Source: an uncultured Erysipelotrichaceae bacterium (lineage in GTDB: Bacteria; Bacillota_I; Bacilli_A; RF39; UBA660). Taken from it: DNA of 64,000 nucleotides. Positions 7,957-54,662 of this stretch are shown in pieces. The stretch lies in NCBI GenBank assembly GCA_902793375.1, contig CADBDE010000001.1, forward strand, positions 1-64,000, given 5' to 3'. Position 1 is the first letter of the stretch. Every line of letters starts with the position of its first letter. Below the pieces are notes generated by a model, which saw nothing but the letters and a program-made list of their open reading frames with translations, did not search any database and was not told the DNA's origin. The translations under genes and the position numbers were made by a program.

Positions 7957-8679
7957 TTACTTCTTATTAGATATTATAGAACAGATACTTTTCTTATTTT
8001 CTCTTGAGATATCAAAGGAAGTAATTCCGTTTTTAAGAGTAATCTTATTCTCATTAAGATCATATTCTACTACTTTATCTCCATTAATAATACAACTTCT
8101 ATTAATCTTAATAAATCTATCATCTAACCTTTTACAAACATCTTTCAATGTTTCAGATGCATAAAAGCTTCCTAAAGATGATTTTATAATACACTTTTTA
8201 CTATCTTTTTCTTTAGTAATCATTTCTATATTTCTAAAATCTAATTTTTTTATTATTCTATTTTGCTCAAAAGTTAAACAATTATCTCTATTATCATAAT
8301 ATTTTTTTATATGTATTAAATCTTCTTTTAATGTTTTTTCATAGAAACAATCTTTAATAATACAATCAAAAAGAAATAGTTTTTTACCAATATATTCGTT
8401 TTTGATTTCACTATGTTTTGTTACTAATATTATGATTGAATTCCAATCATCTAATTCACTTCTAATATATTCGGAAAATTCTATTCCTAATCTCTTTAAA
8501 CCATCATTTAATATATATACTTTAAAACCCTTAATAGAATTTATTTTTTCTTTAAAATTATCTTTGATGCTAAACAAGTGGTATTTAACTTCAATATCAA
8601 AGTTCATCATATAATTCTCTATAATTGTTTTTGTTTTTACTGCATCATTATACTCATCACTTATTATATAATTTATCAT
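7957..8679 (-). CDS. LytTR-family response regulator with degenerate receiver
   Basis: A 240-residue AgrA-like protein with a CheY-like N-terminal domain (about 1-120) and a C-terminal LytTR DNA-binding domain (about 140-238, including RFIKINRSCIINGDKVVEYD). Where AgrA-type receivers have the phosphorylated aspartate at the end of strand 3, this one reads VYILNDG (N58, D59), so the phosphate site may be lost or moved. No histidine kinase is nearby. It starts 12 bases after tagO (AGAAAGGAAATAAC then ATG), suggesting a shared transcript. Confidence 0.85.
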   Translation of the reverse strand: MINYIISDEYNDAVKTKTIIENYMMNFDIEVKYHLFSIKDNFKEKINSIKGFKVYILNDGLKRLGIEFSEYIRSELDDWNSIIILVTKHSEIKNEYIGKKLFLFDCIIKDCFYEKTLKEDLIHIKKYYDNRDNCLTFEQNRIIKKLDFRNIEMITKEKDSKKCIIKSSLGSFYASETLKDVCKRLDDRFIKINRSCIINGDKVVEYDLNENKITLKNGITSFDISRENKKSICSIISNKK

Positions 8680-47787: not shown

Positions 47788-49710
47788 TTATATATCTAGA
47801 TTTTGTACATATCCAGCATTTTCTTCAATAAATTTACGTCTAGGCTCTACTTCATCACCCATTAACTTTTCAAATATTGCATCTGCTGCTACACAATCAT
47901 CAACTGTTATTTTTCTTAAAACACGCTTTTCTATGTCCATTGTAGTCTCATTTAACTCTTCAGCGTCCATTTCACCTAAACCTTTCATTCGAGCAATTTC
48001 TGCCCTATTTCTGACGTTTTCAGGTAGTGTTTTTAAATAATCTTCTAATTCTATTTCATTAAGAACATATTTTCTTGTTTTACCATGCATTATTCTAAAT
48101 AATGGTGGTTGAGCTGCATAAACGTGCCCAGCCTCAACTATTGGTTTAAAGAATCTATAGAACAATGTTAATAAAAGTACTCTTATATGGGATCCATCAA
48201 CATCGGCATCGGTCATTATTACAATCTTATCATATCTTAACTTAGATAAATCAAATTCTTCACCAATTCCTGTTCCAAACGCAGTTATAATTGTTCTTAT
48301 TTCTTCATTAGATAATGCTCTATCTAGTCTTGCTTTTTCAACATTTAATATTTTTCCTCTTAATGGAAGTATTGCTTGAGTCATTGAATCTCTTCCTTTT
48401 TTAGCAGAACCACCTGCTGAATCTCCCTCGACTATGAAGATTTCAGAGACTTTTGGATCTTTGCTCTTACAATCTGATAATTTTCCAAAAAAGTTTGTAG
48501 TTGCAAGATCACTTTTTCTTGTTATTTCTCTTGCTTTTCTTGCTGCATTTCTAGCACGACACGCAAGCATCGCTTTACTAACTATTTCTCTTGCGTCATC
48601 TGGATTTTCAAGTAAGAATCTTTCAAAACCTTGTGAAAATACGTTATCAGCAAGTTTTCTTACCTCAGAATTACCTAATCTTCCTTTTGTTTGTCCTTCA
48701 AACTGAGGATTTGGATGCTTACATGAAATAATCATTGTAAGTCCTTCTTTAACATCATCACCAGTTAGTGGTTCATCTTTTTCTTTTAAAATATTATTTT
48801 TTCTAGCATAATTGTTAATAACTCTTGTTAAAGCACGTTTAACTCCTTCTTCATGAGTTCCACCATCATGAGTATTAATATTATTAACAAAAGAATAAAT
48901 ATTTTCGTTATATCCAGTGTTATATTGCATTGCGACTTCGAAGAATACTCCATCCTCTTCACCTTCAAGATGAATTATATCTTCATGCACTGGAGTTTTA
49001 CCACTATTGATAAACCTTACATATTCACTAATTCCACCTTCATAAAGGAATGTTTCACCAGTTGTATCTTCATCATCTCTATCATCCCTTAGATTAATAG
49101 ATAATCCTTTATTTAAGAATGCTAGTTCTCTTGATCTAACCATTAATGTATTATAATCATAAATATCAGAATCAAATATATCAGGATCTGGTTTAAAAGT
49201 AACAGTTGTTCCTGTTCTATTAGGATCACACTCATCTATTACTTTTAATGGTTCTACAGTATGTCCACCATTTTCAAATCTAACAAAATATACTTTTCCA
49301 TTTTTATATACTTTAACTTCTAACCACTTTGATAAAGCATTAACAACACTTGCTCCAACACCATGAAGACCACCAGATACTTTGTATCCTCCTCCACCAA
49401 ATTTACCACCTGCATGAAGTACAGTATATACTGTTTCTACTGTTGATATTCCAGTTTTTGGATGTATTTCTACTGGTATTCCACGTCCATCATCTTTTAC
49501 TGTTATAGAGTTATCTTTATTAATAACAACTTCTATATTGTGACAAAAACCTGCTAAAGCTTCATCTATTGAATTGTCAACAATTTCCCATACTAAATGG
49601 TGAAGTCCTTTCAAGTCTGTTGTACCTATATACATTCCTGGTCTTTTTCTTACTGCTTCTAGTCCTTCTAATACTTGTATTGAAGAAGAATCATAGTTTT
49701 CATTTTCCAT
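47788..49710 (-). CDS. gyrB: DNA gyrase subunit B
   Basis: About 640 residues, starting at [20 protein letters not shown] by analogy with Bacillus GyrB; ATG 49716 and 49731 are in frame alternatives. GHKL ATPase elements [26 protein letters not shown] and [15 protein letters not shown]; Toprim [14 protein letters not shown] and [10 protein letters not shown]. The start region overlaps the end of recF, which terminates in TGA, so the two are coupled. Confidence 0.97.
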
Positions 49711-50827
49711 TGTCATCACTTTCCTTTTCAATAATTTTTCCTTTTATTACATTAAATATTTTTGAAGAATCAATAAATTTTTTATTTAATCCTTTAGTAT
49801 CATTTGTTGTTATTATTACTTGGATATCTTCATCAATATATTTAATTAACTTATTTCTTGTTTTTATATCTAATTCACTAAATACATCATCTAAAAGTAT
49901 TATTGGATTACTTCCAGTAATATTTTTAAATATTGGTATTTCAGATAATTTAAGAGATATAATAGCAACTTTTTGTTGTCCTTGTGATCCATATATTTTA
50001 ATATCATCTTCCCCTATTAAAAATTTAATATCATCTCTATGAGGACCATATAAAGTCATACCATTTTCTATTTCTTTATTTAATGAATTTTTGTATTTAT
50101 TTATTAGTTTTTCTTTTAAATATTCTCTATCAAAATTATCAAAATCAATATTTGTTTCATAAATAACTCTAAAATTATTTATTCCTATAATATCCTTATA
50201 TATTTTTGATACATTTTCATTAATTAAATTAATAAAATTATTTCTTTCTTGATAGATATCTATTTCTCTTTCTATCAAATTTTCTGTTAAACTATCTAAA
50301 TATCTATTATCAGTATTTAAATTTCCATAACACATTTTTAAGTAATTATTACGTATTTTTAGTATTTTATTAAATTCATTATATTTTTTTATATAATTTT
50401 TAGATATTTGAGATAATTCTATATTTAAGAAATTTCTTCTTTCTTGAGGTGTACCTTGAAGTATATTTATATCTTCAGGACTTACTAATATTACATTTAA
50501 ATTAGTGATATAATCAGATATTTTATTTACAATATTATTATTAATTTTTACTTTTTTATCATTCTCTGATAATTCAACAGTAAGAGATTTTAAAACACCA
50601 CTATCTCTTATATCCCCTTTTATCTTTAAAGATAAACTATCTTTATTAATAAGATTAGTATCATTGGTTCTATATGATTTAGTAAGTGCTAAAAAATAGA
50701 TACTTTCTAATAGATTTGTTTTTCCTTGGGCATTATCTCCTATAAATATATTAATTTTTTTTGAAAATTCTACTTCTTGTTTTACTAAATTTCTATAATT
50801 CACCAGTTTAATTTTCTTTAAAATCAA
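49700..50827 (-). CDS. recF: DNA replication and repair protein RecF
   Basis: A 375-residue SMC-like ATPase loading RecA at gaps. Walker [18 protein letters not shown] (30-46), ABC signature [18 protein letters not shown] and Walker [14 protein letters not shown]. The only workable start is TTG at 50827; an in-frame TAA lies two codons earlier and there is no ribosome site directly before it. A 9-codon mini-ORF (stop included) with good signals ends on the TTG, implying coupled translation. Confidence 0.96.
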
Positions 50828-50850: not shown

Positions 50851-50930
50851 ATTCTCACCTTAACTATATTTAGTATTCCTATACACACAATATAATTATA
50901 TCACAAAATAAGCCTAAAAACAAAGAAAAA

Positions 50931-50955
50931 GAGATTTTAATCTCTTTTTTTTGCA
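50931..50955 (-). terminator. comK terminator
   Basis: Minus strand AAAGAGAT-TAAA-ATCTCTTT followed by T residues; the TAA stop of comK forms part of the loop. Confidence 0.85.
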
Positions 50956-51398
50956 TTTATTCTCTTAAAAATTATTGATTCAAGTTTAGTAGATCGATAA
51001 ATTTGATTATCTAATGATAATTTTGATATATCAAATGTCATTTTTCTACCATTATTAAATGTTATTTCACTCTTATTATTATCAATTTTTTTTATATCAG
51101 AAATACTATTTAAATTAATCCAGCAGCAATCATCTAATAAAGATGATTTAATTGGAAAAAATATAAGTACACTACTCTCTTCTACTAATATAGGTAATTT
51201 ATAACTACAATTTAGTAATTCTTTAGCAGCCTCTAACCTACCCTTATAACTACTTCCATAATATTTACAGCTTTCATCCATTACTTTGTATGCATCATTA
51301 TTAATAGTATAATCATTATTTTTTTCGATTATTATTGTTTTTCCAACACTTTTAGCTATGATTGCATACGTTTCTTCGTTTATTTCATAATTATTCAT
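50937..51398 (-). CDS. comK: ComK-family competence transcription factor
   Basis: A 153-residue protein with clear ComK family features: YEINEETYAIIAKSV at the start, KVMDESCKYYGSSYKGRLEA, then LPILVEESSVLIFFPIKSS and DDCCWINLNSI. ComK switches on DNA uptake genes by binding A/T-box pairs. The place between dnaN and recF, where Bacillus has the S4-domain yaaA, is unusual. Start after GGGGGATAAT. It has its own terminator, and a 0A-box-like sequence lies just upstream. Confidence 0.88.
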   Translation of the reverse strand: MNNYEINEETYAIIAKSVGKTIIIEKNNDYTINNDAYKVMDESCKYYGSSYKGRLEAAKELLNCSYKLPILVEESSVLIFFPIKSSLLDDCCWINLNSISDIKKIDNNKSEITFNNGRKMTFDISKLSLDNQIYRSTKLESIIFKRINAKKRD

Positions 51399-51439
51399 AT
51401 TATCCCCCTTTGTTTGAGAGATATAATATCAATAATATA

Positions 51440-51460
51440 TATCGAAATTTGTCGAAATAA
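51440..51460. promoter_or_regulatory. Spo0A-box-like tandem in front of comK
   Basis: Plus strand TATCGAAATTTGTCGAAATA: two TCGAAA units exactly ten bases apart (51442 and 51452), the second inside TTTGTCGAAATAA, which fits the 0A-box core TTTGTCGAA. It lies between the dnaN stop side and comK, about 45-60 bases before the comK start. In Bacillus Spo0A binds the comK promoter directly. Confidence 0.5.
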
Positions 51461-51473
51461 GTAAAAAATAGAA

Positions 51474-52604
51474 TTAATATGTTCTAATTGGTACAACTAA
51501 TTGAAGAAGTCCATCATCTTTAGTATTTTTAATAACAATAGGTTTAACTTCTCCTACAAATGACATCTCTATTTCTTCAGTATTTAATGCATTTAATGCC
51601 TCCATCATATATTTTGCACTGAATGCAATTGTTATTTCTTCGTCATTATTCTTAGAAATATTCATTTTCATCTCAGCTTTTCCTTTTTCATTAGAAACAG
51701 ATTTGACTGTTAATAAATTATCTTTAGTTGATAAAGAAACAATATTTTTTTCTTTATCTGTTGTTAAAATACTTGCTTGTTCTATTACATTATATAATTC
51801 TTGAAGATTTGCTTTAATAATTAAATTAAATTCTTCTGGAATTGATTTAGCTGTTGGTGGATAATTTCCACTAATTAATCTAGATTGAAATAATAAATCT
51901 TCATTTTCAAATAATATTTTATTATTAAATACATGTATTTTTATTTCTTTAGAACTACTATCAAGAATTCTAGAAAATTCAATTATATTTTTTCCAGGAA
52001 TAATAATATTATAATTTTCTTCAACAGATTGTGCTAATCTTATATTTTTTCTTGCTAATCTATAAGAATCTGTAGCAATACACTCTAATATATCTCCATT
52101 AATTTTAAAACTAATTCCAGTTAGTACTGGACGAGCTTCATCATTTGATGTTGCAAAAGCAGTTTCTTTAACAATATCTAATAAACTAGATGTATCAATA
52201 ATAATTGATTTTTCACTTTTTTCAAGATTAACATTTGGATAATCATTTTTATTAATAACATTTAAATCATATTTAATTCTTTCATCATCAGTATATATTA
52301 ATACCTTAGCATCGTCTACTACTTCTAAATTTATATTTTCATCAGGAATTACTCTAACTATTTCTAAAATATCTTTACCTTGAAGTATTACTACTCCTTC
52401 ATTATCAATTTCCATATTCTTTTTTTCAACTTTAACAAACTTTTGAATAGTAATATCATTATTTGATGCTGTTAATAATAATCCTTTCTTTGTTAAATCA
52501 AATTTAATACCTGCAAGTGTTGGAATTAAATTTTTAGTTGATATTGCTTTTGATACCTTATTTAAGTTCTCCATTAAAACATTTTTCTTAATTTTTAATT
52601 TCAT
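51474..52604 (-). CDS. dnaN: DNA polymerase III beta sliding clamp
   Basis: A 376-residue clamp with three similar domains, beginning MKLKIKKNVLMENLNKVSKA. Family elements LTGISFKINGDILECIATDS and LVVPIRTY at the C-terminus (partner-binding groove) are intact. Ribosome site GAAAGAGGTAATAAAT. Preceded by dnaA and separated from it by the downstream origin region. Confidence 0.98.
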   Translation of the reverse strand: MKLKIKKNVLMENLNKVSKAISTKNLIPTLAGIKFDLTKKGLLLTASNNDITIQKFVKVEKKNMEIDNEGVVILQGKDILEIVRVIPDENINLEVVDDAKVLIYTDDERIKYDLNVINKNDYPNVNLEKSEKSIIIDTSSLLDIVKETAFATSNDEARPVLTGISFKINGDILECIATDSYRLARKNIRLAQSVEENYNIIIPGKNIIEFSRILDSSSKEIKIHVFNNKILFENEDLLFQSRLISGNYPPTAKSIPEEFNLIIKANLQELYNVIEQASILTTDKEKNIVSLSTKDNLLTVKSVSNEKGKAEMKMNISKNNDEEITIAFSAKYMMEALNALNTEEIEMSFVGEVKPIVIKNTKDDGLLQLVVPIRTY

Positions 52605-52728: not shown

Positions 52729-54120
52729 TTAATTATGTATTTCTTTTTCTAGTTTATCTATTTCATCTGCTAATGTTTTATTTTTCTTCATCTCTTGCTC
52801 TATTTTTTCACACGAATGCATAACAGTTGAATGATCTTTTCCACCAAACTCAATTCCTATTTTAGGAAATGATTCATCTGTATGTTTTCTACATAAATAC
52901 ATAGCAATTTGTCTTGGAAAAGCAATTGATGAGTTTCTTTTCTTTGATTTTAAGTCATCTATTGATATTTTAAAGTAATCTGCAACGATTTTCTGTATTT
53001 TACTAACATCTGTATCATCACTATATCCTAGATTTAAATAATCTTTTAACGCTTCAATTGCAAGATTTAAATCTATATCTCTACCCATCATTGTAGAATA
53101 TGCAAGAAGTCTTGTTAAACTACCTTCTAGACTTCTTATATCTGTCCCTGCATTCGACGCAACATATTCTAAAACATTATTTGGAACATCTTTTTTTATA
53201 TATTCTCCCTTAATCTTTCTTTTTAAAATTTCTAATTTTAATTCAAAATCAGGAGGATATATATTTACGGATAATCCCCAACCAAATCTTGTCCTTAATC
53301 TATCTTCTAACAATTTCAAATCATTTGGTGATCTATCTGATGATATAATAATTTGTTTTTCATCTTCATATAAATTTTGAAAAGTATGGAAAAATTCTTT
53401 TTGAGATTCAGTTCTTTTAGCTAAAAATTGAATATCATCTACTATTAATACATCAATTCCTCTATATTTCTTTTTAAAGTACGCTATATTATCAAAATCA
53501 CTTTTATTATTATCTTTCTTAGTCATGTCAATAAAATCATTACAAAATGTTTCACTAGTTATATATAATACTTTTTTTCTACTATTATTTTCAATATAAT
53601 TACCTATTGCATGCATTAAGTGAGTCTTACCTAATCCACTATTACCATATATAAATAGTGGATTATATATTGCTCCAGGATTTTCTGCAACAGCAAGAGC
53701 TGACATTTGAGCAAACTTATTACTATTTCCAACTACAAAGTTATCAAATGTATAATTCTTATTTAAATGAGATTCAAAATTAAATGAAGAATCATTATCA
53801 TATATATTAATATTATTATTTGCTTCTCCGTCTTGAATTTTTAATAAATCATCTTCTATATTATGTTCAATTTCTTCTTCAATTAGAAATTCAAGTTCAA
53901 CATTATCCCCTACTTCTTCAATAAATTTCGACTTAATTAAGTCATAGTAGTTATTTTTTAAATGATCTTTATGCATTGCATAAGGAACTATTATTTTTGC
54001 TACTCCATTTTTTAATTCATATAGTTCAGTATCATTAAACCAGGTCTCATAAGAAAAAGAAGCTAATTCTAACTTTATTTTACTAAGAATATTTGACCAT
54101 ATTTTAGAATTATCATTCAT
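52729..54120 (-). CDS. dnaA: Chromosomal replication initiator protein DnaA
   Basis: A 463-residue initiator. Domain I (about 1-85), an acidic Asn/Asp-rich linker (about 86-125), AAA+ domain with Walker A GNSGLGKTHL (159-168) and VLIVDDIQFLAKR Walker B, and C-terminal DNA-binding domain with the signature GIEFGGKDHSTVMHSCEKIE. Start preceded by AGGGGCGTGATAAG. It is the first minus-strand gene of the replication cluster. Confidence 0.98.
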   Translation of the reverse strand: MNDNSKIWSNILSKIKLELASFSYETWFNDTELYELKNGVAKIIVPYAMHKDHLKNNYYDLIKSKFIEEVGDNVELEFLIEEEIEHNIEDDLLKIQDGEANNNINIYDNDSSFNFESHLNKNYTFDNFVVGNSNKFAQMSALAVAENPGAIYNPLFIYGNSGLGKTHLMHAIGNYIENNSRKKVLYITSETFCNDFIDMTKKDNNKSDFDNIAYFKKKYRGIDVLIVDDIQFLAKRTESQKEFFHTFQNLYEDEKQIIISSDRSPNDLKLLEDRLRTRFGWGLSVNIYPPDFELKLEILKRKIKGEYIKKDVPNNVLEYVASNAGTDIRSLEGSLTRLLAYSTMMGRDIDLNLAIEALKDYLNLGYSDDTDVSKIQKIVADYFKISIDDLKSKKRNSSIAFPRQIAMYLCRKHTDESFPKIGIEFGGKDHSTVMHSCEKIEQEMKKNKTLADEIDKLEKEIHN

Positions 54121-54498
54121 CTTATCACGCCCCTGACCGATTACAAGAAATATTTTAGACTAATTGTTTGAAAAAGAAAAGAGAATTTTATAAAATATTT
54201 TTTTCAACAAAATAATCAACAATATTACTCACAATTAAATACTTATTATATATAATAAAAATTAATTTTTCCACATTTTCCACAAATTTTTTATAACAAT
54301 GTGTGAAAAAGTTATTAACAAGTATGTGAATAATGTTAAAAAGTATTATTTTTAATGTAATTATACAATATAATTTATTATTATTTTATGAATATTCCTT
54401 TATTAATTAATAATTTTATTAAATAATTAAATTTAGATAATTGACAATTGTATTATTTATTATTATAATAATTACGATTTTAGTTTGGAGGTGGAATT
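54121..54498. other. oriC, dnaA-rpmH intergenic part
   Basis: 378 bases without a gene, very A/T-rich. It holds DnaA-box-like 9-mers: TTTTCCACA twice back-to-back (54267-54275 and 54276-54284) on the plus strand, then TTTTTCACA (54302-54310) and TTATTCACA (54325-54333) on the minus strand. The boxes on the two strands face each other across about 17 bases. The leftmost 120 bases should contain the dnaA promoter; no single clear -35/-10 pair stands out. The rpmH promoter occupies the right end. Confidence 0.75.
54441..54469 (+). promoter_or_regulatory. rpmH operon promoter
   Basis: Consensus -35 TTGACA (54441-54446), exactly 17 bases, then -10 TATAAT (54464-54469). The ribosome site GGAGGTG and the GTG start of rpmH follow. 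Confidence 0.88.
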
Positions 54499-54618
54499 GT
54501 GAAAAGAACTTATCAACCAAATAATAGAAAAAAAGCTAAAAAACATGGTTTCTTTGCTCGTAAAAAGACAAAAGTATTAAATAAGAGAAGAAGTAAAGGT
54601 CGTAAAAAATTAGTTTAA
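54499..54618 (+). CDS. rpmH: 50S ribosomal protein L34, short form
   Basis: GTG start after GGAGGTGGAATT. The product has 39 residues: [20 protein letters not shown] then [20 protein letters not shown]34 is normally 44-46 residues; about five residues are missing where others read R-M-S-T-K-N-G. The rest aligns, so the protein should be functional. First gene of the rpmH-rnpA-yidC-jag group, though a hairpin follows it. Confidence 0.95.
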
Positions 54619-54620
54619 AA

Positions 54621-54646
54621 TTCCACTGAAGTCAGTGGCTTTTTTG
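54621..54646 (+). terminator. rpmH terminator/attenuator
   Basis: CCACTGA-AG-TCAGTGG followed by CTTTTTTG. It separates the highly expressed rpmH from rnpA; partial read-through would be needed to express rnpA, since no separate promoter is evident. Confidence 0.8.
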
Positions 54647-54662
54647 TTTAGTGAGGTATATT

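Follow-up and report, generated by a model that had tools for sequence, protein, structure and literature searches.

A ComK-family regulator in the replication-origin cluster of RF39 bacteria, with putative Spo0A boxes at its promoter and DprA rarely present

What is a comK-family gene doing inside the replication cluster of an uncultured Erysipelotrichaceae bacterium of the order RF39, and does its presence there speak for natural transformation? The window, that is, the whole stretch of 64,000 nucleotides analysed, carries on its minus strand a cluster whose open reading frames follow the order dnaA-dnaN-comK-recF-gyrB-gyrA. The origin cluster of B. subtilis, dnaA-dnaN-yaaA-recF-gyrBA, resembles it in gene order and origin position and differs in the dnaN-recF slot, which is filled here by comK. 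An earlier note on this DNA had pointed to this arrangement, which the gene order confirms. The features concerned are the following.

50937-51398, minus strand: comK-family gene, 153 aa, ATG start (open reading frame, PF06338 match and AlphaFold2 model)
about 51404-51409, minus strand: comK ribosome-binding site AGGGGG
51474-52604, minus strand: dnaN, upstream neighbour of comK (by sequence, position and conserved synteny, no profile)
49700-50827, minus strand: recF, downstream neighbour of comK (open reading frame and conserved synteny)
52729-54120, minus strand: dnaA (open reading frame)
54121-54650, no strand assigned: probable oriC in the dnaA-rnpA intergenic region (GC-skew switch and DnaA-box-like cluster)
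50920-50949, minus strand: A/U-rich hairpin followed by a U-run, overlapping the comK stop codon (fold z=-3.2)

Between 52 and 56 kb, near dnaA/rnpA, the GC skew reverses its sign, and DnaA-box-like sites lie at 54267-54333, which together place comK about 3 kb from oriC. The hairpin over the comK stop codon was not called by a simple terminator scan; it is probably a weak terminator separating comK from recF.

The membership of the product in the ComK family, also claimed by the earlier note, is borne out by the profile search: it matches PF06338 with 139.4 bits (E=1e-40), six times the curated cutoff of 22.3, over the full length (positions 2-151 of 152), and the same profile is matched by 51/51 aligned ComK homologues. 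A Pfam ComK search of the whole source genome returned this single copy. The NCBIfam search with the product gave no match, and a search of the PDB sequences yielded no relative of ComK.

ComK is present in 274 of the 288 sampled genomes of the order and in 100/102 genera; among 39 relatives it was found in 30, including all 24 genomes of the source's own family. When the window genes were searched by tblastn around the comK loci of this family, the dnaN/recF slot fitted 58/62, in a set that is weighted to well-scoring ComKs and does not include the more divergent comK of other genera (E 1e-13 to 1e-30). Both neighbours flank comK at 53 of these loci, one neighbour is present and the other side lies off the contig at 4, dnaN is frame-split at 1, and comK lies elsewhere at the remaining 4, one of which (G016) has it after ligA. 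A second, independent scan of GTDB contigs gave 18/18 comK loci consistent with the slot. The synteny dnaN-comK-recF is real and not due to chance. At one locus, L008 of genome G020, dnaN is read beside comK in two overlapping pieces, by a frameshift or an assembly error. In other families of the class, ComK-like proteins are weaker, mostly shorter, and encoded at other locations; those of loci L025, L026, L029 and L030 measure 133-147 aa and lack the N-terminal YEIN strand. The literature searched, on ComK with dnaN/recF or with RF39, does not describe this arrangement. RF39 bacteria are predicted to be spore-forming with altered regulation (PMC10868615).

The ComK proteins of the source's family stop shortly beyond the core: 16-26 residues follow the conserved NQ motif, versus 62 in Listeria ComK, which is about 40 residues longer, and the Bacillus-type C-terminal activation tail together with the MecA recognition region is absent from them. 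In B. subtilis, truncation of ComK by 25-35 residues abolishes comG induction (PMC3536758), and the MecA signal lies in the C-terminus (PMC8138137). The loss of this tail suggests that the ComK described here would not be subject to the known type of MecA/ClpC control. The AlphaFold2 model of the protein has a mean pLDDT of 95.5, and its top Foldseek matches in the PDB include the LytTR structures 3d6w, 4cbv and 4xqn (AgrA, ComE), with probabilities of 0.75-1.00, target TM scores of 0.50-0.59 for the isolated domains and no E-value below 0.01; a few ComK members also give sub-threshold Pfam LytTR matches. From these two observations, ComK may be a remote relative of the LytTR DNA-binding domain, compared with which the model has two additional helices and, at the C-terminus, a long one. 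Elsewhere in the window, at 7957-8679 on the minus strand, a LytTR protein (47 bits) is encoded for which Pfam gives no receiver domain.

The region between dnaN and comK contains an ordered set of elements.

51460-51466, minus strand: degenerate third repeat unit TTTTACT
51450-51456, minus strand: perfect putative 0A (Spo0A) box, TTCGACA on the coding strand and TGTCGAA on the plus strand, as in the consensus
51440-51446, minus strand: second putative 0A box TTCGATA, one mismatch, 10 bp downstream of the first
51423-51431, minus strand: extended -10 TGATATTAT, separated by 8 bp from the last 0A box, a spacing conserved in the family

The consensus of the 0A box is TGTCGAA (PMC3485338), of which TTCGACA is the reverse complement. 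The comK promoters of the family share the same plan, tandem TTCGACA boxes spaced by 10 bp, then 8 bp, then the extended -10 TGNTATAAT, and the consensus of the 33 best promoters reads (TTCGACAAAW)x3, then N5, then TGNTATNAT. With at most 5 mismatches, a triple array of period 10 occurs in 26/60 comK promoters; at periods of 7-9 or 11-15 it occurs in 0/60, and shuffles also gave none. About 27 of the 60 loci, with mismatches above 6, show no clear array of three. The tandem pair is found in 25/60 comK promoters versus 0 in shuffles, and in 0/19 comEA and 0/13 pilB promoters. The distance from the last box to the TG of TGN-TATAAT is exactly 8 bp in 24 loci, every other spacing being represented by at most 3. 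Within the source genome, the comK array is the second-best tandem 0A pair, surpassed only by the one at C1:264073. The latter (264073-264099, locus L174) is located in what may be a mobile element, a region carrying a gene for an XRE-type regulator. The comK promoters resemble the Spo0A-controlled promoters of spore-formers in having TGTCGAA boxes near a sigma-A-type promoter, and differ from these in standing before comK, in their three 10-bp repeats and in the fixed 8-bp distance to TGNTATAAT.

A hairpin sequestering the comK ribosome-binding site was considered for the source genus and rejected: its 5' arm falls between the -10 and the predicted transcription start, so that most of the hairpin is probably not transcribed. 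In other genera (e.g. loci L009, L019, L080, L084 and L096), the comK leaders have a hairpin of varying sequence between the -10 and the ribosome-binding site; 21/61 comK leaders have a fold z below -2, which is of moderate significance.

The reading of the TTCGACA boxes as Spo0A sites follows from the occurrence of similar boxes before spo0A, where a box with at most one mismatch is found at nearly all loci of the family examined, and before HisKA/HATPase histidine kinases in three genomes. At loci L172, L176 and L189, the histidine kinase stands behind a tandem 0A array and adjoins a conserved membrane-anchored protein; these arrays are likely to reflect a feedback in the phosphorelay. In B. 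subtilis, PcomK is bound by Spo0A~P (PMC3297582), which suggests that the regulatory link between Spo0A and comK is old; Spo0A sites are common to both promoters, and the phased architecture seen here differs. Promoter conservation lends good support to the predicted control of comK by Spo0A. The spore-former context assumed by the earlier note also agrees with the data, the window encoding SpoIIR and SpoVG and Spo0A (Spo0A_C) being encoded in 22/24 genomes of the family. Spo0A was not found in the source assembly (about 97% complete) nor in G010, both of which retain good comK arrays; for the source, this is perhaps an assembly gap.

The same note had taken ComK boxes upstream of late competence genes, and the existence of such genes, as the tests of a competence role. 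The genes exist in the source genome: comEA occupies the end of contig 24, where a contig break also interrupts comEC, whose other part stands at the end of contig 17, and a PilB/ComGA-like ATPase is encoded on contig 26 with two pilin-like ORFs opposite, the only one of which tried against Pfam matched no family. The boxes asked for were not enriched: at comEA (19), pilB (13) and comK (60), pairs of AAAAN5TTTT were no commoner than in shuffles or in the reversed control, with the reservation that a diverged ComK site would escape this search, and the spaced pair stood at control level genome-wide. Single K-boxes at comK promoters were discarded as ComK sites: they are in excess, but the reversed control is equally so, which points to base composition. 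Upstream of comEA (L058:8230-8262; L207, L216, L218, L219), a terminator-like hairpin follows the preceding gene in several genera, and its 3' arm takes in the comEA ribosome-binding site (AATAATCTC..GGAGGTT-TTTTT-ATG).

ComEC was found in 264/288 genomes of the order and DprA in only 4; of the family genomes first tested, 0/15 had DprA, and the source genome is also devoid of it. Among nine relatives of the class outside the family (G024-G032), DprA occurs exactly in the five that lack ComK, so that the two are mutually exclusive (Fisher p=0.008, in genomes that are few and related). Compared with the ComK of B. subtilis and Listeria (PF06338), which it resembles by its full-length core match and its status of single-copy regulator, the protein described here lacks the tail with the MecA signal, is encoded in the dnaN-recF slot behind tandem phased 0A boxes that directly precede an extended -10, and occurs in a genome without DprA where no ComK boxes were detected.

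Could ComK nevertheless be the classical master regulator of competence, controlling comEA-comEC and a transformation pilus, with transformation proceeding without DprA through another RecA loader or at low efficiency? The conserved core, the retained uptake and pilin-like genes and the Spo0A boxes that B. subtilis comK also possesses would fit such a role, and a dprA deletion in B. subtilis still leaves about 10% of chromosomal DNA transformation, a drop of only about tenfold (PMC2216020), so that the loss of DprA weakens transformation as an explanation without excluding it. Against this stand the absence of DprA across the order, the lack of ComK-box enrichment at comEA, pilB and comK, the ordinary pilB promoter (TTGATT-17-TATAAT) and the missing activation tail, and we consider this role rather unlikely. 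The lack of box enrichment and the absence of DprA from 284/288 genomes mean that natural transformation, one of the two outcomes foreseen by the earlier note, is not established; the other, a repurposed ComK, fits better. The uptake of DNA under ComK is possible, canonical transformation not being demonstrable.

The position of the gene and the identity of the factor reading its promoter call for a similar weighing. The origin-proximal dosage and the timing of replication might have been selected to tune ComK and tie it to replication initiation: the synteny is retained across many genera, comK and its putative 0A boxes lie close to oriC, and B. subtilis offers a precedent in the position of spo0F and in Spo0A at oriC (PMC5295017). 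However, four loci keep comK elsewhere and, since the origin cluster is in any case strongly conserved, hitchhiking would suffice; selection for the position appears unlikely to us. That comK entered the slot once in an ancestor and stays there because the cluster is rarely broken has, in our estimation, an even chance of being right; the vertical pattern within one order and the tolerance of relocated copies agree with it, and operon coupling is not needed for a gene that has a promoter of its own and probably a terminator, but it leaves a near-universal ComK without DprA unexplained. Neutral vertical inheritance accounts for the origin position as well as a dosage advantage does. As for the TTCGACA array, a regulator other than Spo0A, ComK itself or an unrelated factor, could be considered in view of the missing Spo0A of the source assembly and the degenerate arrays of many genera. 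Such a regulator seems improbable to us, given the match to the 0A consensus, the boxes at spo0A and the histidine kinase, and the high conservation of Spo0A_C in the family.

The model we propose, which as a whole we hold to be moderately probable, is that of a Spo0A-controlled regulator of the ComK family, vertically inherited in the origin cluster and acting at the entry into stationary phase or sporulation. The gene would have been fixed in the dnaN-recF slot early in this order of small-genome gut Bacilli and inherited vertically thereafter, and it would be transcribed from its own promoter. Spo0A~P would bind the tandem 0A boxes, phased by 10 bp and placed just before the extended -10, and so switch comK on near stationary phase or sporulation. 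The protein keeps the ComK core and lacks the tail needed in B. subtilis for comG activation and for the MecA signal. Its output would likely be a stationary-phase programme, which may include the retained DNA-uptake channel; DNA uptake would then serve nucleotides or repair rather than DprA-assisted transformation. Since DprA, a standard protein of natural transformation, is missing, ComK may have a different job here. Extended to the whole order, the proposal becomes tentative and somewhat doubtful: a tail-less ComK beside oriC, switched by Spo0A and taken out of transformation, would run a part of sporulation entry or a nutritional DNA uptake in cells without DprA.

In conclusion, almost all that is known of ComK concerns its role as competence switch in cultured Bacillales, and its near-universal presence in an uncultured gut order, within the replication cluster, without DprA and behind apparent Spo0A boxes, suggests that its tie to transformation may not be general. 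For the annotation of genomes, it follows that comK and comEC are insufficient to infer natural transformation. The order would thereby offer a comparative handle on the rewiring of competence and sporulation circuits.
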